Shown piece after piece: positions 9,572 to 25,630 of a DNA stretch of 36,794 bases (the stretch's first letter is position 1; every line of letters starts with the position of its first letter). The DNA is from Isosphaeraceae bacterium (GTDB lineage: Bacteria > Planctomycetota > Planctomycetia > Isosphaerales > Isosphaeraceae): positions 1-36,794 of the forward strand of contig JANXSX010000089.1 of the NCBI GenBank assembly GCA_025356475.1, read 5' to 3'. The position numbers and the translations under genes were made by a program. The notes beneath the pieces were generated by a model that had not been told where the DNA came from, made no database searches, and was given only the letters and a program-made list of their open reading frames with translations.

Positions 9572-9668
9572 ACGGACAAACTGACGTACACGCTTTGTTG
9601 TTGCACCTTGGTTTCTCGGACAGGACGTATCGAGATACCAGTGGAGTGGGTTTGAAGGATGCGCATTG

Positions 9669-10778
9669 ATGGCGATTTCCACCGAACGGTACGCCCCGCG
9701 ACTGAACGCCTCCATTCCCGGTGACGATGTGAGTCTACCGGGTGTGATTGGTCAGGGTTCCGCGATGCGCGAGGTTTCACGGATAACTCGGCGAGTTGCT
9801 GTGTCACGCGCCTGCGTGCTGATCGTGGGTGAAACCGGTACTGGCAAGGAGTTGATTGCGCGCGCGATCCACGACTTGAGCCCTCGCCACTCGGGTCCAT
9901 ACATTCGAGTCAACTGTGGCGCTCTGACCGAGAGCCTGCTCGAAAGCGAACTGTTCGGCCACGTCAAAGGTTCGTTCACAGGTGCGGTCGATAATCGTAC
10001 AGGACGTTTCGAGGCAGCCCACACCGGCAGTATCTTCCTCGACGAGATCAACAGCACCTCGCCCAAACTCCAAGTGAAACTTCTGCGTGTTTTGCAAGAG
10101 GGGGAGTTCGAACGGGTCGGCGATACCCGCACCGTGAAGGTCGACACCCGGATTGTGGCCGCGACAAATCGAGACCTACTCGACGAGATTGATGCCGGCC
10201 GATTCCGTGAAGACTTATACTATCGCTTGAATGTGGTTCCTATCTATTTGCCTGCTCTTCGCGAACGTCGCGATGACATTCCGCACTTAGTGGAGTTCTT
10301 CCTGAAGCGATATGGGGACCAGAATCGCCGCGAGGTCCGAAGTGTCCATCCCGAAGCGATGCGGCTCCTGCGGGAGCACGATTGGCCGGGCAATGTTCGC
10401 GAGCTCCAAAACTACATTGAGCACGCCGTCGTCCTTGGTGAAGGCATCGAGATGTTGCCCGCCCACCTGCCCGCCCAGCTTCGCGGAGAGGCTCCCCCCC
10501 GCCCGATTCGTGGTCGAGTGGGAGACCTACCCGGCCTGACCGCCGAGCTGGTTCGCCAAGGCTTACGAGCCGCAGGACCACAGGCGAACGATCTTCACGA
10601 TAGGATTGTTGGCCAGGTCGAACGTGAGCTGATTCAACAAGTTCTCACTGCTTGCGAACGTGTTCAGATCAAAGCCGCCGCCCGGTTAGGGATCAACCGC
10701 AACACACTTCACAAGAAGCTCGCAGAGTTCAAAATCGATAGCGTCAATGAGTCGCTACCGCCCGTTGATGATGAATAA
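9669..10778 (+). CDS. Sigma-54-dependent activator without a receiver domain
   Basis: An AAA+ enhancer-binding protein that would remodel sigma-54 RNA polymerase. The 369-residue product goes almost straight into the AAA+ domain: Walker A GETGTGKE near residue 55, ELFGHVKGSFTGAV (the GAFTGA loop as GSFTGA, a common variant), Walker B GSIFLDEI, sensor and arginine-finger region AATNRDL...RFREDLYYRLN, and DWPGNVRELQNYIEHAV. The C-terminus carries a Fis-type helix-turn-helix (IKAAARLGINRNTLHKKL). There is no N-terminal receiver or GAF domain, as in PspF, so control must come from a partner or from expression. AAGGA lies nine bases before the ATG at 9669. The ATPase of the next cassette begins 45 bases after its stop, without a visible terminator. 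Confidence 0.9.
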   Translation: MAISTERYAPRLNASIPGDDVSLPGVIGQGSAMREVSRITRRVAVSRACVLIVGETGTGKELIARAIHDLSPRHSGPYIRVNCGALTESLLESELFGHVKGSFTGAVDNRTGRFEAAHTGSIFLDEINSTSPKLQVKLLRVLQEGEFERVGDTRTVKVDTRIVAATNRDLLDEIDAGRFREDLYYRLNVVPIYLPALRERRDDIPHLVEFFLKRYGDQNRREVRSVHPEAMRLLREHDWPGNVRELQNYIEHAVVLGEGIEMLPAHLPAQLRGEAPPRPIRGRVGDLPGLTAELVRQGLRAAGPQANDLHDRIVGQVERELIQQVLTACERVQIKAAARLGINRNTLHKKLAEFKIDSVNESLPPVDDE

Positions 10779-10823: not shown

Positions 10824-11876
10824 ATGTTGAAGTCCCTCGAAATCAAAAATCTGACAGTCTTTGCAGATGGAAACCTGCAATTTGGTCGTCACTTGAATGT
10901 CTTCGTGGGTGAGAATGGAACAGGGAAATCCCACCTGCTTAAGGTCACCTATGCGGTACTCGCCACGATCGCAGAAAAGCGACAAAAACTGGAGATTGGG
11001 GTTCCAACAAAGAAAAGCCTTCAACAGAAGCTTGCGGAGAAATTGGTCACTGTTCTTCGCCCCGAGAGTCTCGGAAGGTTGGCACGTCGTCAGGTGGGAA
11101 TGAATCGATGTCAAGTTCAATGCCATTTTGAGGATCGCAAGCACGACGTCGACTTCCACTTTACAACCAAGAGCCAATCCGAAGTGATTATTGACAAGTT
11201 GCCGACCAGTTGGCTCAAGAAACCACCCGTGTTTCTACCTACACGCGAGTTGTTGACGATCTATCCCGGGTTTGTTTCATTTTACGACAATCATTATCTG
11301 GAGTTTGAGGAAACGTGGCGTGATACCTGTACTCTGCTTGGGGCAGCGCTTGTTCGAGGTCTGAAGGAAGAAGAGGTTCGCAAGCTATTGGGTCCTCTCG
11401 AAGAAGCAATGGGTGGCAAAGTCGAATACGACCAGAATGGTCGATTTTACTTGAAGATCCCGCAAGAAGGCCGCATGGAAATGCCGCTTATTGCGGAGGG
11501 CCTGCGCAAGTTGGCGATGTTGGCCCGTTTGATTGCGACAGGATCCTTGTTGGGCACGGGAGCGTTGTTCTGGGACGAGCCGGAGACAAATCTCAATCCC
11601 AGACTTATCAAGGAGGTAGCCCGGGTTGTGCTGCATCTCTGTCAGAATGGGGTCCAGGTCTTCATCGCAACGCATAGCCTTTTTCTAATGAGAGAACTGG
11701 ATATCCTGCTAAGAAACGAACTTTGGCAAAGTCTTGATGCACGATTCTTTGGATTGCAGCGGGAGAAAGACGGAGTTGAGATCGAACAAGGCGATAGCAT
11801 CGACGATATCGGCGCGATCGCCGCACTCGATGAAGAGTTGAGTCAATCCGATCGGTATCTCCAAACGGAACTCTAA
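10824..11876 (+). CDS. ABC/AAA-type ATPase of a probable defence cassette
   Basis: A 350-residue SMC/OLD-like P-loop ATPase. Walker A is GENGTGKSH near residue 31. A signature-like segment [20 protein letters not shown] precedes Walker [13 protein letters not shown], and the switch His is in [13 protein letters not shown]. This is the AAA_15/AAA_21 architecture found as the motor in many anti-phage and OLD-family systems, but no Toprim domain is fused. GAGAGG lies seven bases before the ATG. The nuclease gene starts four bases after its stop, so the two are almost certainly cotranscribed. Base composition is more AT-rich than the flanking core genes, suggesting transfer. Role in phage defence is inference from architecture and pairing. 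Confidence 0.8.
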
Positions 11877-11880
11877 TTCA

Positions 11881-12477
11881 ATGCCAACCTTGACCGAAGC
11901 CGAGCTGACCTTCACGTTTCCCGAGGGTTGGAGAGCGACGAAATTGGACGAGTGGAGTTTCTATAAAGACCAATTTATGAAACTCTGTTCAGGATTACAG
12001 TCTACTTGTGCGAAGTGTGATGCAAACTTGCATTGTCAGAACTGTGGAACATCAAAGAATGTCGGAATTAAAGCGGTCGACTTTGTCGCAATCGACACCC
12101 AAGATACGACATGGTTGATCGAGGTCAAGGACTACCGAAGGCACCGTCGCACAAAAGCTATCGATATAGGTAGCGAGATCGCTTTGAAAGTGCGAGACAC
12201 CCTGGCTACAATAGCGGCGGCTTCACGCAATGCCAATAATCCTACGGAAAAGGCTCTCGCGTTAGCGGCGTTGGCATCTTCACACTTCCGCATCGTGCTT
12301 CACCTGGAGCAGCCGAAGACTTCAGCAAAGCTATTTCCTCACGCGAAAGATCGTGCCGATTTTGTTCAGAAGCTCAAGCAACTCTTGAGATCGGTTGACC
12401 CACGTCCTCGAGTCGTTGGGATGGGAAGTCTCATTGACGGCACGTGGAAGGTGTCGTCTCAAAAGAGGCATAAATAG
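11881..12477 (+). CDS. PD-(D/E)XK-like nuclease with a zinc ribbon, partner of the ATPase
   Basis: A 198-residue protein beginning MPTLTEAELTFTFPEGW. A CxxC-x5-CxxC zinc-ribbon-like cluster (Cys43, 46, 52, 55) is followed by AVDFVAI (Asp67) and WLIEVKDYR (Glu81, Lys83), which fit the D...ExK active site of PD-(D/E)XK nucleases. A helical region (LKVRDTLATIAAA) follows. From memory, short proteins with the same TEAELxFxF start, EVKD motif and VRDT helix are found next to AAA ATPases in cyanobacteria and others; the Cys cluster seems an addition here. It is four bases downstream of the ATPase gene. Cutting activity and target are not shown by sequence. Confidence 0.65.
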   Translation: MPTLTEAELTFTFPEGWRATKLDEWSFYKDQFMKLCSGLQSTCAKCDANLHCQNCGTSKNVGIKAVDFVAIDTQDTTWLIEVKDYRRHRRTKAIDIGSEIALKVRDTLATIAAASRNANNPTEKALALAALASSHFRIVLHLEQPKTSAKLFPHAKDRADFVQKLKQLLRSVDPRPRVVGMGSLIDGTWKVSSQKRHK

Positions 12478-12625: not shown

Positions 12626-13519
12626 ATGACGTTGCATCTTGAGTTCGACCAGCTTCATCAGGGCGATTGCCTGGATTTGTTGAAGAGGCTCCCAGATGGT
12701 ACGGTCGACCTTGCCTTCGCCGACCCTCCGTTCAATATTGGCTACGATTACGACGTCTATGACGACAAGCAAGACGCGAACGACTACCTGGACTGGAGCA
12801 GGAAGTGGATTGCTGAGGTTGCGCGAGTCCTGAAGCCCACCGGTTCGTTCTGGCTGGCGATCGGGGATGAATATGCCGCCGAACTGAAGGTGATGGCCCA
12901 TCGTGAACTCGGCCTGTTCCCGCGAAGCTGGGTGATCTGGTACTACACTTTCGGTGTTAATTGCGCCAATAAGTTTAGTCGTAGCCATGCGCACTTGCTC
13001 TACTTTACCAAAGATCCAAAAACATTCACATTTAATGTCGAAGAGATCCGAGTCCCCTCGGCGCGGCAACTCGTCTATGCCGATAAGCGAGCGAATCCCA
13101 AGGGCCGCTTGCCCGACGATACCTGGATCTTACGCCCACAAGATCTTCCGGAGGATGGGTTCGACCCGACAAGTGATACCTGGTACGTCTCTCGGGTCTG
13201 TGGGACCTTTAAGGAACGTAAGGGGTGGCATGGTTGTCAAATGCCGGAGCAGGTTCTCGGTCGGATCATCAGGGCTTGTTCAGCCCCCGGAGATCTTGTG
13301 CTCGACCCGTTCGCTGGTAGTGGAACGACGCTTGCAGTCGCCAAGAAGCTTGATCGCCGATTCCTTGGGTTTGAACTTTCGAGTGAATACGCGGCCCGGG
13401 TCCAGAGTCGACTTGAGTTTATCGAACCAGGCCAACCGCTCGACGGCGTTGAAGAACCCTATGTCAAGACGGTCCGCACCCGTAAGGTCCAAGCGAACAT
13501 GATCCCGGGGCTCGAATGA
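12626..13519 (+). CDS. Beta-class DNA methyltransferase (N6-adenine or N4-cytosine)
   Basis: Transfers a methyl group from S-adenosylmethionine to an exocyclic amino group in DNA. The 297-residue protein has catalytic DPPF (near residue 34) before the AdoMet-binding DPFAGSGTT (near residue 230), the beta-class order. The opening [27 protein letters not shown] is typical of this group. No C-terminal RAMA-like domain as in CcrM is present. The target is unknown. It could be a solitary regulatory methylase or the protective partner of the nuclease gene just upstream; the dedicated promoter and ordinary GC content favour the former. Its stop overlaps the GH18 start (ATGA at 13516-13519). Confidence 0.9.
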
Positions 13520-17932: not shown

Positions 17933-18961
17933 TCACGGTTTTGGATGACGACCTTGGATCGTCTTTTTGGTCGCCGACCGAAACCATGCAACGCAGGTTT
18001 CGAAATCGTCGGTCCAATCTTCATTCTCACATTGTGGAATCGGTTGGTAGGTTTCGAGGAGCGAGTTGTCAGTCTGTTTGGGTATGAGCCAATCGGCGAC
18101 CGTATAACGAAAAGTCGTCCACTTATTGGAGGATGGATAAAGTGCGACCGCGAGAATGTCAAACTCTCCGAACCGGTAAGGACGGGTCGATTCCCCTGTA
18201 ACCGAGTTTCCACCCGAGCGCGTTTGTTGGGTTTCAACAATGAACATTCCGGGTAAAAAGCCCAATCTTCGTGAGACTTCCTCTGAGAGATAGGGACGAC
18301 CCTGTTTGCTTCGCTGAAGTTTGACCTGAACCTTGAGCTCTGAAACACCGGTCTTTAGCAGGAAATCGTAAGAAACGTCGCCGCCAATGGGTAAGGATTG
18401 CCAAGCATCCGGCAGATTTTTGACGACATAAATGTCGAAAGCAGCTTCAGCGATCACGCCACGTATCATCCTTAGGGTCAGCTTTCCTGATCTATGAATC
18501 GCCTCAAGGATCACTTCGGCAGAGATTCCGAGGTTTTCCTCAAGTGGATGAATTGGGAATTCTTTCCTCAGATGATTTAGAATCTCTCGTTTCGTCTCTG
18601 TACTTGAACTATGGAGAAGTTGATGAATACGATCGACTTCCCGAGATTCCACGGACTTTGGCCGTCCCGAGGCCTGCGGTCGAAACGCCTCGAGATCACT
18701 TCGACTCACAAGTGTATGCCCACCGATCACTGTGCTCTTGATGCGACGGTTCTGTACCAACTTGTGAATCGCTTGTCGCGAAACGCCATGGAGACGGGCA
18801 GCCTCTGCCTGGGAGATCCAGTCCGAAAGACTTTGATCTTCATTCTCGAAATTGGTTGACAATGTCAACTCGTGGGCTAGGATATTGTTGGGTAGTATCG
18901 AACGATAGTGACTGCCGAATGTTCGTAGCAATCGTGAAAACTGAGGAACTGGGATGTCCAC
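17933..18961 (-). CDS. Putative restriction endonuclease with N-terminal helix-turn-helix
   Basis: A protein of 309-342 residues depending on start. Near the N-terminus is an excisionase/MerR-type DNA-binding domain ([21 protein letters not shown], then [11 protein letters not shown]). After a helical linker, [20 protein letters not shown] fits a PD-(D/E)XK nuclease core of the QxK kind (Asp199, Gln212, Lys214, counted from the GTG). It is divergent from, and overlaps the 5' end of, an M.PvuII-like methyltransferase, which strongly suggests the endonuclease of a type II system. No ATG lies in the first part: GTG 18961 is the longest option, and TTG codons at 18868 or 18862, inside a palindrome, are likelier. 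Base composition is AT-rich compared with carB. No similarity to R.PvuII itself is evident. Confidence 0.65.
18855..18869. promoter_or_regulatory. 15-bp perfect palindrome between restriction and methyltransferase genes
   Basis: GTTGACAATGTCAAC reads the same on both strands apart from its central base. It contains a consensus -35 TTGACA on each strand and overlaps the likely TTG starts of the restriction gene. It lies 85 bases before the methyltransferase ATG, so a protein binding here could control both genes. Confidence 0.5.
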
Positions 18962-19925
18962 ATCGCGAAGCTCGAGTGCTCGACAGCCTAGCCTGGTCTT
19001 TCACAGAGAGACGAAGCTTGAGATACCGAACTTCACCCCTTATTTCAGCACTACCCAGGGTGATGCCTACCTCGCAGACTCACTCGACATTCTCAAAGCA
19101 TTGCCTGATAATTCGCTAAATGTGGTTGTCACATCACCTCCGTACGCCCTGCACTTTAAAAAGGAATACGGTAACGCGGAAAAGGTCGACTACATCGCGT
19201 GGTTTCTCCCGTTTGCACGCGAAATCTTTCGTACCTTGGCCGATGACGGCAGTTTTGTTCTGAATATCGGGGGAAGCTATAACAAGGGAACTCCCACTCG
19301 TTCACTCTACCACTTCAAACTGCTTATCGAGCTGGTTGAAACTGTAGGATTCTACCTTGCACAGGAGTGCTTCTGGTACAACCCTGCCAAGATGCCGGTA
19401 CCTGCGGAGTGGGTGACGGTACGTCGGATGCGTATCCGCGACTCGGTTGAGTATGTTTGGTGGCTCTCGAAGACTCCTTGGCCAAAAGCCAACAATCGTG
19501 GAGTTCTCAAACCCTACAGTAAAGACATGGAACGACTCAATCGGAAGGGTATTGAAGCGACTTTACGTCCTTCTGGACACCATATTCGGTCCAGTTTCAG
19601 TGGGATTGAGGCGGGTGGATCAATTCCACCGAATGTGATCGATGAAGAGTTACCAGATGACCTGCTGCGATTCGGGAACAACGCAGCAAATGATCCTTAT
19701 ACAAAACGTTGTAAAGAAGCCGGCCTAAAAATCCATCCCGCTCGTTTTCCTGCGGCACTACCCGAGTTTTTCCTGAAGCTACTGACGGGTGCAGGTGATT
19801 TGGTATTAGATCCATTCGCCGGTTCGAATACCACTGGCGCAGTCGCTCAAGCACTCGACCTTCGCTGGATTGCAGTCGAATCTGTGGAGTCATATCTTGA
19901 AGCAAGTCGTTTTCGTTTTGAATGA
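18954..19925 (+). CDS. M.PvuII-like DNA methyltransferase (probably N4-cytosine)
   Basis: The 323-residue protein is a beta-class amino-methyltransferase with catalytic TSPPY near residue 60 and AdoMet-binding [10 protein letters not shown] near residue 285. Segments such as [17 protein letters not shown]...SFS, GGSIPPN and [18 protein letters not shown] closely resemble what I recall of M.PvuII, which methylates N4 of cytosine in CAGCTG. The target here need not be the same. GAGG lies upstream of the ATG at 18954. It is divergent from the HTH-nuclease gene with an 8-base overlap of maximal frames. Together they form a compact type II restriction-modification unit without a separate controller gene. 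Confidence 0.9.
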
Positions 19926-22338: not shown

Positions 22339-24210
22339 CTATTTGAGACTGACGGGCTTGCCCGAGGTTCGAGGGGTGGCAAATGCTTCGAGCATCGCGG
22401 ATCCTTCCGGGTGCAAGGCCTCAAGGCCGAGCTGGGCTTGCAAGGCGTAACTCAGTCGTCGATCGCCGCCGACGAGGATCACCAGCCGGCGGCTTGCAGG
22501 TAAGGCCAGCAAGTCTTGAGGGCTGCCGACCTCGAGTCGCTTGACCTCGGGAATCGTGGTCTCGATCAGGAACGGAAGCCTTCCCCCTGGTGTCGCATCC
22601 TCAGCCCCTACGACTGCGAGCGTCTCGAACGGTTCAAGACGATGCCGGTTGAGGATGATCGACCTTAAGGCCAGCAGTTCGCGATGCTCCTTATGGCGGA
22701 AGTGGGCTTCACCGAACCCTGCCGCTAGGATTGTCGCCAGTACCGTGATCAAGAAGCCCGAGAGGACCCATCGCTGGCGATCATCGCGACGCCGGGCCCA
22801 GCCATCAAGACCTCGCGTCAGGACCACGCAGGCGATCAGCAGGTCGAGAGCAAGATGCAACCCTAACGCTGTCCCCGAACTGGCATGCCCCTGTGCAAGT
22901 TCAGCCACTGCCCCACGCAAGTTTGCGCTGGCCCACCAGGCGATCGATACGGCCGTCGCGGGCGCAAGCCAGGTTAAGGTTCGGACCGGAACCCGTCGGC
23001 TCGCCAGGTCGAGGATACTCTGAGCGGCGAGCAGGTTGAGCGGGATCAAAAGAAAGAGGTCGAAGGCGGTATGTGGCCCATTCGGCCAGAAGGTCGGAAA
23101 AACGGCGGCGACCGCTAGCCAAAGTACCCAAAAGGTTCCCCCCACCGTCCCTCGATCTTCGGTCTCGGCGGTGAGTGCCATGCGGATCGCGCGGGTCACT
23201 CCAAAGAGGCCGAGCGGAAGTGTTGCTGGTGCCAAGTCGATTAACCGAGCGATCATCCCGGGCGGATCGCCGGCAGTCAGCGCATCGGGTGGGTTCAGAA
23301 TCGCGTTCACGAAGTCGAACCCATAGGTTCGGAGCATGTGGAGATACCAAGGCGCGGCGATGGCCAGGCCGAGGATCATCACAAGGATGCCCCCCACAAC
23401 ACTGGGATTGAACCGCCAAGCCAACCACCAGCGCCCAGAACGCTCCGCCGGTAACGAGGCCGCCCAGAGATAACTCTGATGAAGCAGAACAATCGGCAGG
23501 CAAACCAGTGCGAACCAACCGAGGCTCAAGAGCGAAGCCCCAAAGGCTAGACCCCCCACCACTGCCCAGACCACACCCCCATCGAGACCCCACGACCACG
23601 CGGGCCCGGAGCCCACTCGCAAAACTCGGCCGTAGGCAAACAAGGCGAGCGTCACCCCCGCGAGTGCCAATGTGGTCGGCGTGGCCGCTTGCATCTGGTC
23701 GAGCAACAAGCAGTTGAAACCGGTGAGTACCCCAGCCACAAGCCCATGCCCTGAGCCTCGCCAGAGCCGACCGTGGAAATAGGTCATACCGACCAGGAAC
23801 GAGCCTGCCAAATAGCTTGGCAAGACCGCTGCCCAGGGGTCAAGATTGGGAACAAGCTTCAGGGCGATCGCGGCGAGCCAGGCATACAGCGGCGGCTGAA
23901 GCGACACGACGCGATAAGCCCCGGCATCGGTCCCAGATCCCAGATTTAGCGCAGCGCCGGACCCAACTTGGTCGAGTACATGCCCATCAAGGACCGCCAG
24001 GGCCCTCAAGCCCCACCACGGTCCGGGAGGGTTCATATCCCACGAATTGAGTGCGTAGAGTCCCGGCAACACCGCCACAAGAACGACCAGCGGAAAGAAC
24101 ATCGCCGACCGGGGCGCAGGAGGAACTAGCGGTCGTGCTGAGGTCAGCATCCCCTCCGCACGTGCCCGCGTTTCAATCCGATGCCGCATCGTCGACACGA
24201 GCGACTCCAT
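22339..24210 (-). CDS. GT-C glycosyltransferase family (ArnT/PMT-like) membrane protein
   Basis: Likely transfers a sugar from a lipid carrier to an acceptor at the outer face of the inner membrane. The 623-residue product has a hydrophobic first segment (MFFPLVVLVAVLPGLYAL), an early WDMNPPGPWW loop where GT-C enzymes place a catalytic acid, a QPPLYAWLAAI motif typical of family 39/ArnT-like proteins, and about ten membrane helices in all. A soluble C-terminal region follows (VVGAEDATPGGRLPFLIE, LVILVGGD). The ATG at 24210 is preferred to a TTG at 24291. It sits downstream of the EANRRNA protein gene and upstream of rmlA on the same strand, consistent with surface polysaccharide work. Confidence 0.75.
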   Translation of the reverse strand: MESLVSTMRHRIETRARAEGMLTSARPLVPPAPRSAMFFPLVVLVAVLPGLYALNSWDMNPPGPWWGLRALAVLDGHVLDQVGSGAALNLGSGTDAGAYRVVSLQPPLYAWLAAIALKLVPNLDPWAAVLPSYLAGSFLVGMTYFHGRLWRGSGHGLVAGVLTGFNCLLLDQMQAATPTTLALAGVTLALFAYGRVLRVGSGPAWSWGLDGGVVWAVVGGLAFGASLLSLGWFALVCLPIVLLHQSYLWAASLPAERSGRWWLAWRFNPSVVGGILVMILGLAIAAPWYLHMLRTYGFDFVNAILNPPDALTAGDPPGMIARLIDLAPATLPLGLFGVTRAIRMALTAETEDRGTVGGTFWVLWLAVAAVFPTFWPNGPHTAFDLFLLIPLNLLAAQSILDLASRRVPVRTLTWLAPATAVSIAWWASANLRGAVAELAQGHASSGTALGLHLALDLLIACVVLTRGLDGWARRRDDRQRWVLSGFLITVLATILAAGFGEAHFRHKEHRELLALRSIILNRHRLEPFETLAVVGAEDATPGGRLPFLIETTIPEVKRLEVGSPQDLLALPASRRLVILVGGDRRLSYALQAQLGLEALHPEGSAMLEAFATPRTSGKPVSLK

Positions 24211-24294
24211 CCTCGATCGATCTTCCCTGATCGTTACCTCATCCTCACGGATAACTTGTTTTACCAGAACCCAGGGAGGGCGCGTAGCCAAACC

Positions 24295-25263
24295 TCAGGC
24301 AGAAGTCCGGCTCAGGTATTCCTGATGTCGCATGGCTTTTTGCTGTTTGCGCCGGTAAAGCCGATTGCCCGACTGCGTCGGCTCGACGTTACTGACCGCA
24401 ACCACAGGGACCGCGACAACCGGAATTGGCTTCGTTTCGGTAACCGCAGGAGCCGGAGTTGCGACCGGCTTGGGCTTGGCCTTCTCTAATGCCTTGAGGG
24501 CGCGCTCGAACGAGCGGATCGACTCGCGTTCGTAACGTCGGATCAGCTTGAGACTTGCGTCTTCAAGATGGATCGACCCCTGGATATGCATCTTGCGGAG
24601 CTTGGCGTTCTGAGCATCCGACTTCGACTGCTCGACTTCGAGCTTGGCGATCTCGCCCAGGATTAGCGCCATCGAAGATTCCTTCGCGGCGAACGTGTTC
24701 TGGAGGTCGGTTCTCGCGTCTCGCAATGTCTTCGGCACACCCAGCAAGTCGAGGGCCACGTGGTACTCAGTGTCGGTCCACTTCGGCACGCCGTCGCCTA
24801 CGAAGGCGACCAATAGTTGTTTCCACTGCAAGATCAACCAATCTCGTCCTGCGGGAGTCAGTCGGAGCTTGAGCAGCACGAGTGCGGGATTGCGTTTGAG
24901 GGAGTCGCCCAACTTATAGGCTTCGATCAATCGATGCGTATCCCAATCGGCGCTCATCGCGAGTTCGGCAATCTCGGCTCTTCGTTCGGACTCGCTGGTC
25001 TGGCAAAGTTCGATCCGTAGCGATGCGGCAACCGCAAGGTTCACCTGGAAGACTTCCACGCAAGACTCAGGCTTGAGAGCCTCGCTCCAGGTCTGGAATC
25101 GCGCCCTTTGTGCACTTTCCTGCGTCGGGGGCGTCACAATCGTTGCGGTCATCCCATGCTGGAGCGAGTTCTGCCGCGACGCCGCCTTGCCCTCTTCCGT
25201 TCGAGGACCCGTGCTGAGTGCTGCGTTCCGCCGGTTGGCCTCAATTTGCTTCTGGGACGACAT
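24295..25263 (-). CDS. Planctomycete EANRRNA-motif hypothetical protein
   Basis: A 322-residue protein starting MSSQKQIEANRRNAALSTGP, then RTEEGKAASRQNSLQHGM. This N-terminal pattern (QxxANRxNAxxSTGPxTxxGKxxxxxNxxxHG) recurs in many paralogues in Planctomycetota and Acidobacteriota (from memory); its function is not established. The middle is helical and charged. Near the end comes a Pro/Val/Ala-rich low-complexity linker (KPKPVATPAPAVTETKPIP) and a basic tail (RLYRRKQQKAMRHQEYL), suggesting nucleic-acid binding. The ATG at 25263 has AAGGAA upstream and begins exactly at the family motif. Confidence 0.7.
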   Translation of the reverse strand: MSSQKQIEANRRNAALSTGPRTEEGKAASRQNSLQHGMTATIVTPPTQESAQRARFQTWSEALKPESCVEVFQVNLAVAASLRIELCQTSESERRAEIAELAMSADWDTHRLIEAYKLGDSLKRNPALVLLKLRLTPAGRDWLILQWKQLLVAFVGDGVPKWTDTEYHVALDLLGVPKTLRDARTDLQNTFAAKESSMALILGEIAKLEVEQSKSDAQNAKLRKMHIQGSIHLEDASLKLIRRYERESIRSFERALKALEKAKPKPVATPAPAVTETKPIPVVAVPVVAVSNVEPTQSGNRLYRRKQQKAMRHQEYLSRTSA

Positions 25264-25630
25264 GGGAGGTTCCTTCCGTAAGGGTTGTGCCAATAAGTCC
25301 AGCAACCTCGCTGGGCCGCATACGCAACTATTGCGTGAAAGATACCACATTATTGACGACAAGGGTTCCGTAGTCGGAATACTTTTCGTGGGCCGCCCAG
25401 ATCACGTACAGCGGAGAGAGAGGCGAATACTCGATGCCATGCAGGTTGGGAAAATGTTCGGAGGGCTGCAATGCAACGTTGGGTCTCGAGCTGCTCCGGC
25501 GGGGGAAGCGTTAGACTTCGCAATCCTCGCTGGGCCAAATCTCACCTTGATCCTCTTCTCTACGACGCTTGTCCCAGGTAGCATGAAACGATTCTTACAA
25601 TCGATTTGGGGTGCGATAGGAGATCACTCG
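25264..25630. other. Gap between divergent genes with a small inverted repeat
   Basis: About 370 bases between the EANRRNA gene (minus) and the solute-binding lipoprotein gene (plus), which must hold both promoters. ACGCAA-CTA-TTGCGT at 25322-25336 is a perfect 6-bp inverted repeat that could be an operator for the minus-strand gene. An open plus-strand frame extends through here into the lipoprotein gene but lacks a start with a ribosome site and reads as unconserved sequence. Confidence 0.45.

Follow-up and report, generated by a model that had tools for sequence, protein, structure and literature searches.

In the Septu system, a complex of an ATPase and a nuclease degrades phage DNA (PMC12948488). 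In Lamassu, an SMC-like sensor activates an effector, which can be a PD-(D/E)XK nuclease; LmuA consists of an effector domain and a docking domain, and the SMC-like LmuB is putatively defective in ATP hydrolysis (PMC10586767). A further group, the Hma-embedded candidates (HEC), was found through 'guilt-by-embedding' (PMC10855318; PMC12988326; PMC11411939), and several of these, HEC-06 among them, were active in assays according to a review-type analysis in which HEC-02 is not named (PMC12988326). No mention of HEC-02 by name was found in the defence literature searched, and no report of an activity test of HEC-02 was found in the accessible literature, the HEC source preprint (10.1101/2024.01.29.577857) lying outside that scope. 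HEC-02 is listed in PADLOC-DB 2.0.0 (Payne et al., 2024 preprint). It is a catalogued candidate, and its mechanism has been little studied.

The locus described here lies in a window of 36,794 nucleotides, which is the whole stretch of DNA that was analysed. It consists of two genes on the same strand, separated by 4 bp according to the ORF calls, between two flanking genes that are not part of it. The features referred to below are the following.

9666..10778, plus strand: sigma-54-type activator, flank, not part of the pair (Pfam Sigma54_activat; matched in 36/36 genomes searched)
10824..11876, plus strand: HEC-02 ATPase, 350 aa, ABC/SMC-type head without TOPRIM, ATG start (PADLOC, Pfam, AlphaFold2, VIA)
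10908..10934, plus strand: Walker A motif GENGTGKSH, ATPase residues 29-37 (G29, G34 and K35 invariant in 78 sequences)
11495..11512, plus strand: ABC signature-like motif AEGLRK, residues 224-229 (E225, G226 and K229 invariant in 78 sequences)
11562..11600, plus strand: Walker B and D-loop, residues 247-259 (W250, D251, E252, P253 and N256 invariant in 78 sequences)
11673..11675, plus strand: H-loop His284 of ATHS (invariant in 78 sequences)
11881..12477, plus strand: HEC-02 nuclease, 198 aa, predicted PD-(D/E)XK fold, ATG start (PADLOC, AlphaFold2, VIA)
11995..12063, plus strand: insert of about 24 residues near nuclease residues 39-61, C43-x2-C46-x5-C52-x2-C55, putative zinc ribbon (5/87 homologues)
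12079..12081, plus strand: predicted catalytic Asp67 (kept in 82/83 sequences)
12121..12129, plus strand: predicted catalytic E81-V82-K83 (E81 and K83 invariant in 83 sequences)
12626..13519, plus strand: N6/N4 DNA methyltransferase, flank, not part of the pair (Pfam N6_N4_Mtase; conserved in the lineage)

An earlier note on this DNA had described an SMC/OLD-like ATPase followed after four bases by a small protein with D...EVK residues, and this was confirmed, every motif that it quoted being found. It had further taken the pair for a defence unit of a type that could not be named. A name does exist, since both proteins matched HEC-02 in PADLOC-DB. The HEC-02 profile PDLC04146 matched residues 1-348 of the ATPase with 537.9 bits (E 2.2e-162; profile positions 1-342 of 344), while the next model outside HEC-02, AriA, reached 64 bits (E 4e-18). 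The nuclease matched the HEC-02 profile PDLC04145 with an E-value of 9e-61, the best stretch being residues 43-191 (profile positions 20-168 of 170), and this match was broken in two stretches by the insert. The ATPase profile, the nuclease profile, the arrangement as two adjacent genes on one strand and the presence of relatives embedded in Hma all agreed with membership. Judged by these matches, the pair is the already catalogued candidate system HEC-02, and only its free-standing position and its cysteine insert are unusual in the window copy. The A/B labels of HEC-02 in PADLOC-DB 2.0.0 were found to be inconsistent: the ATPase models are PDLC04146 (labelled HEC-02B) and PDLC04213/04214 (HEC-02A), and the nuclease models are PDLC04145 (HEC-02A) and PDLC04220-04229 (HEC-02B). 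With labels swapped in this way, automated annotation might divide a system or overlook it.

The ATPase matched the Pfam families AAA_21/AAA_15, and an alignment of 78 ATPases showed that the residues of ATP binding and hydrolysis are all retained in the window protein, DEPETNLNP occupying residues 251-259 and ATHS residues 282-285. A stretch at the C-terminus, LDEELxQSDR, is conserved as well. Its AlphaFold2 model (pLDDT 91.4) matched the heads of SMC, Rad50 and Septu PtuA in Foldseek with E-values down to 3e-15. VIA gave Z scores of 18-21 to the same heads over 250-300 residues, the heads covering residues 1-341 of 350. These comparisons support a head of the SMC/Rad50/PtuA type, with a fold predicted at high confidence. 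A TOPRIM domain was not found in the 350-aa protein by Pfam search, and any nuclease activity must therefore come from the partner protein.

Residues D23, E81, K83 and D84 of the partner were invariant among the 83 aligned nucleases. Searches with its sequence against Pfam, NCBIfam and PDB gave no useful match, and none at all in Pfam. Its AlphaFold2 model had a pLDDT of 89.6, and since Foldseek returned zero matches at E < 0.001, the fold class rests on the motifs and on VIA Z scores of 5-7. The second look with VIA gave Z scores of up to 7.2, in a range (below 8) that can reflect a mere common arrangement, and the list consisted mostly of PD-(D/E)XK enzymes, with FokI, BstEII, NucS/EndoMS, Card1, Can2, McrC, HamA, LmuA and Shedu, and also Holliday-junction resolvases. 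Together with the invariant D and ExK residues and the way in which helices and strands follow one another, these scores make the predicted assignment to the PD-(D/E)XK class well supported. A small protein predicted to lack this fold had been named beforehand as a finding against the defence reading; model and VIA list instead gave PD-(D/E)XK, and the reading of the pair as an ATPase plus a nuclease was supported by models and families alike.

The cysteine insert is located in the loop between the first helix and the catalytic D67. A pattern of the C-x2-C-x5-C-x2-C kind was obtained in 0.027% of shuffles of the window nuclease. The segment from the first helix to D67 comprised about 7 residues in most homologues and 30-32 residues in the five carriers of the insert (the window copy, L002, L133, L134 and L135), in all of which the four cysteines were conserved and in register, with a spacing of C-x2-C-x5-C-x2-C or C-x4-C-x5-C-x2-C. 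All carriers came from Planctomycetia (class assigned by inference), and two of the five insert copies (L143, L145) were embedded in Hma. In neither tree, both with low branch support, did the five nucleases group as a single clade, and the insert region was poorly modelled by AlphaFold2 (pLDDT about 58). The likely ligand is zinc, with an iron-sulphur cluster as a possible alternative. The putative zinc ribbon that the earlier note had ascribed to the small protein is a rare insert and no regular component of the cassette: 82 of the 87 nucleases lacked it. It might be suggested, very tentatively and with more doubt than confidence, that a planctomycete HEC-02 lineage has acquired a zinc-binding module beside the catalytic aspartate which alters what the nuclease recognizes (a form of DNA, RNA or a phage protein), and that this lineage represents a distinct subtype also working outside Hma.

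Among 84,980 species genomes scanned, 148 relatives were found, and the best 80 of them were retrieved. According to the record titles, which can be wrong for MAGs, these best 80 of 148 came from about 12 phyla, including Pseudomonadota, Planctomycetota, Cyanobacteriota, Chlorobiota, Chloroflexota, Desulfobacterota, Bacillota, Spirochaetota, Synergistota, Acidobacteriota, Binatota and Myxococcota. The nuclease gene was found directly 3' of the ATPase gene and on the same strand in every homologous locus whose ATPase gene was full-length (77/77), most frequently with a 4-base overlap at the junction, and the trees of the two proteins agreed (rho 0.51 versus a maximum of 0.26 in 300 permutations). 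One locus (L065:1368-2135) showed a 256-aa frame in which the N-terminal part of the ATPase was fused to the nuclease domain, apparently via an internal deletion; this frame reflects either decay of the copy or a mistake in assembly.

Profile matches of the neighbouring genes revealed HmaB upstream of the pair in 13 of 70 loci and HmaC downstream in 11 of 67; among the Planctomycetota loci these neighbours were present in 8/15 and 7/15, respectively. The control, 70 genes taken from the genome of the window only, gave scattered cross-matches of generic ATPase models and nothing else. At loci without Hma, the downstream neighbours were unrelated housekeeping or mixed genes. Homologues found mainly in conserved housekeeping contexts had been named in advance as evidence against defence; the homologues observed did not share one such context. 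Neither HmaB nor HmaC was found in the window's own genome, and no recognised defence gene directly adjoined the pair. Such neighbourhoods are those of an autonomous module for which Hma loci are one of several places of residence. The distribution was patchy: the pair was present in 8 of the 45 genomes from the order and 15 of the 397 from the class. Homologues were found in none of 50,697 phage records and in 2 of 72,556 plasmid records, and there was one hit among viral contigs. In the own-genome sample (L113-L132), one of the 70 genes matched HEC-01A models (2.8e-39) and others matched AriA or mad3 ATPase models, so that this genome may hold more defence candidates of the OLD/AAA_15 type.

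The composition of the pair was compared with 138 ORFs from 20 contig stretches of its own genome and from the window. Both genes had a GC content of 49.7%, versus 58.1 +/- 3.2% in the background (2nd percentile), which confirmed that the pair is AT-richer than the genome. GC3 was 54-55% versus 66 +/- 6% (4th percentile), and synonymous codon choice was within the normal spread (28th and 9th percentile). Promoter and terminator scans of the pair gave slightly more than shuffled sequences, too little to interpret, and a scan of the cassette edges for direct or inverted repeats revealed short, unconvincing ones only. Two other regions of the window attracted attention. At 17936-19922, a second low-GC stretch contained a divergently oriented pair, a 342-aa HTH_17 protein on the minus strand and an N6/N4 methyltransferase on the plus strand, the latter matching a PADLOC Type II methyltransferase model (2.6e-107); these two could be a restriction-modification system with an unrecognised restriction partner. 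At 22342-25362, two large minus-strand frames of 650 and 355 aa were without Pfam or PADLOC match; they may be spurious frames or genes that evolve fast.

Seven genomes of the same family (L100-L106) showed the HEAT-repeat, sigma-54 and methyltransferase genes in the order of the window, with no pair between them. The spacing from the sigma-54 stop codon to the first aligned methyltransferase codon was 8 to 275 bp in these genomes; in the window the same interval measured 1,847 bp and contained exactly two genes. One of the seven (G016) carried a HEC-02 pair on another contig. Since the sigma-54 and methyltransferase genes were adjacent without the pair in seven relatives, the simplest and most likely reading is that both genes of the pair were gained together, and the methyltransferase does not belong to the pair; repeated loss is possible instead. 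The horizontal acquisition proposed in the earlier note is thus supported by the empty site. The same note had read the AT-rich composition as fitting a recent transfer; the low GC content stands, but recency is not borne out, because codon choice was not unusual and the nearest homologues found were distant, with about 54% identity for the nuclease and about 68% for the ATPase.

The locus is likely to be HEC-02, a candidate anti-phage system, in free-standing form; its two genes would have arrived together, between a sigma-54 activator gene and a methyltransferase gene, and would serve as an ATP-gated nuclease in defence against phages or other mobile elements. Speaking against this reading are the near-absence of copies from phage, plasmid and viral records and the lack of a recognised defence gene directly beside the window copy. 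Like the heads of SMC, Rad50 and PtuA, the ATPase would form an ATP-dependent dimer; by analogy with Septu and Lamassu, it would sense foreign DNA or a state of the DNA linked to infection. It might hold the PD-(D/E)XK nuclease in a complex and, on sensing, release or position it, whereupon the nuclease would cut DNA using D67, E81, K83 and a metal ion. This would end in the destruction of the invading DNA, or in that of the host's own DNA and of the cell itself. The four-cysteine insert probably binds zinc and may offer a surface for binding DNA or a partner.

Another reading takes the pair for an optional add-on to Hma (helicase, methylase, ATPase) and the window copy for a stranded remnant. 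HmaB or HmaC do flank part of the loci, including 8 of 15 Planctomycetota loci and two of the five copies with the zinc insert. Most copies, however, were without an Hma neighbour, and in the window genome, which lacks HmaB and HmaC, both genes are nevertheless intact with all active-site residues kept, so that this explanation appears unlikely. A role in host DNA repair or recombination, as a module resembling Rad50-Mre11 and not a defence system, would agree with the ATPase model, whose matches include SMC and Rad50 heads besides PtuA, and with the occurrence of NucS/EndoMS and Holliday-junction resolvases in the fold list of the nuclease. The patchiness within the order, the embedding in Hma, the unrelated neighbours and the empty site do not fit a housekeeping function, and we regard such a role as improbable. 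The adjoining methyltransferase gene, 148 bp downstream on the same strand and matching PADLOC Type II methyltransferase models, might suggest a system like restriction-modification in which the host is protected by methylation. It is a core gene of the lineage, however, with best matches of 57-75% identity in most of the 36 genomes whether the pair was present or not; it adjoins the sigma-54 gene in the seven genomes without the pair, and homologous pairs elsewhere are as a rule without a methyltransferase neighbour. A Type II restriction-modification system with the downstream methyltransferase was rejected on the evidence of the empty site, which settles that this gene is no partner, and a restriction-modification-like function of the pair is very improbable. 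Defence by a free-standing HEC-02 pair is the reading retained here. The window copy represents a compact natural test case, with two genes, no Hma partner, intact catalytic residues and a variable cysteine insert; it bears on whether HEC-02 works without Hma, and on whether the gating of an HNH nuclease by PtuA has a parallel in a small ABC ATPase that controls a PD-(D/E)XK nuclease.

The likeness to pairs of the Septu type, suggested earlier, was supported by models and families. Septu (PtuA-PtuB) and the retron-Septu systems (Ec78, Ec83) share with the locus an ABC-type ATPase and a separate small nuclease, and PtuA was among the closest folds of the ATPase; PtuB, however, is an HNH nuclease, whereas the partner in the window is a predicted PD-(D/E)XK enzyme. 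As an identity for the locus, Septu was rejected: the NCBIfam PtuA model NF041760 gave 35.3 bits against a cut-off of 500, the PADLOC PtuA model 1e-10 against 2e-162 for HEC-02, and the partner showed no HNH or PtuB profile match and had D67, ExK and a predicted PD-(D/E)XK fold instead. Lamassu (LmuA-LmuB, in some cases with LmuC) resembles the locus in its SMC-like sensor and in its type of effector nuclease. Unlike LmuB, the window ATPase is compact (350 aa) and keeps the catalytic glutamate and hydrolysis residues; LmuB did not appear among the 25 PADLOC families that matched the ATPase best, and LmuA structures reached Z scores of only 3.9-4.4 with the nuclease. OLD, Gabija GajA and PARIS AriA belong to the same ATPase superfamily, AAA_15/AAA_21 (AriA 4e-18, Old 7.5e-11, GajA 1.7e-9), but in OLD and GajA a TOPRIM nuclease is part of the ATPase chain itself, whereas the window nuclease is a separate predicted PD-(D/E)XK protein. 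Gabija was rejected, as the ATPase is without TOPRIM and no helicase (GajB) adjoins the pair, which has a sigma-54 activator on one side and a methyltransferase on the other; an OLD nuclease was rejected, as there was no C-terminal TOPRIM hit in Pfam and the ATPase heads fill residues 1-341 of 350. The window copy differs from HEC-02 as catalogued in lying outside Hma, in a genome without HmaB and HmaC, and in the four-cysteine insert of its nuclease (absent in 82/87), and agrees with it in the near full-length matches of both proteins, in the same two-gene order and in having homologues inside Hma loci.
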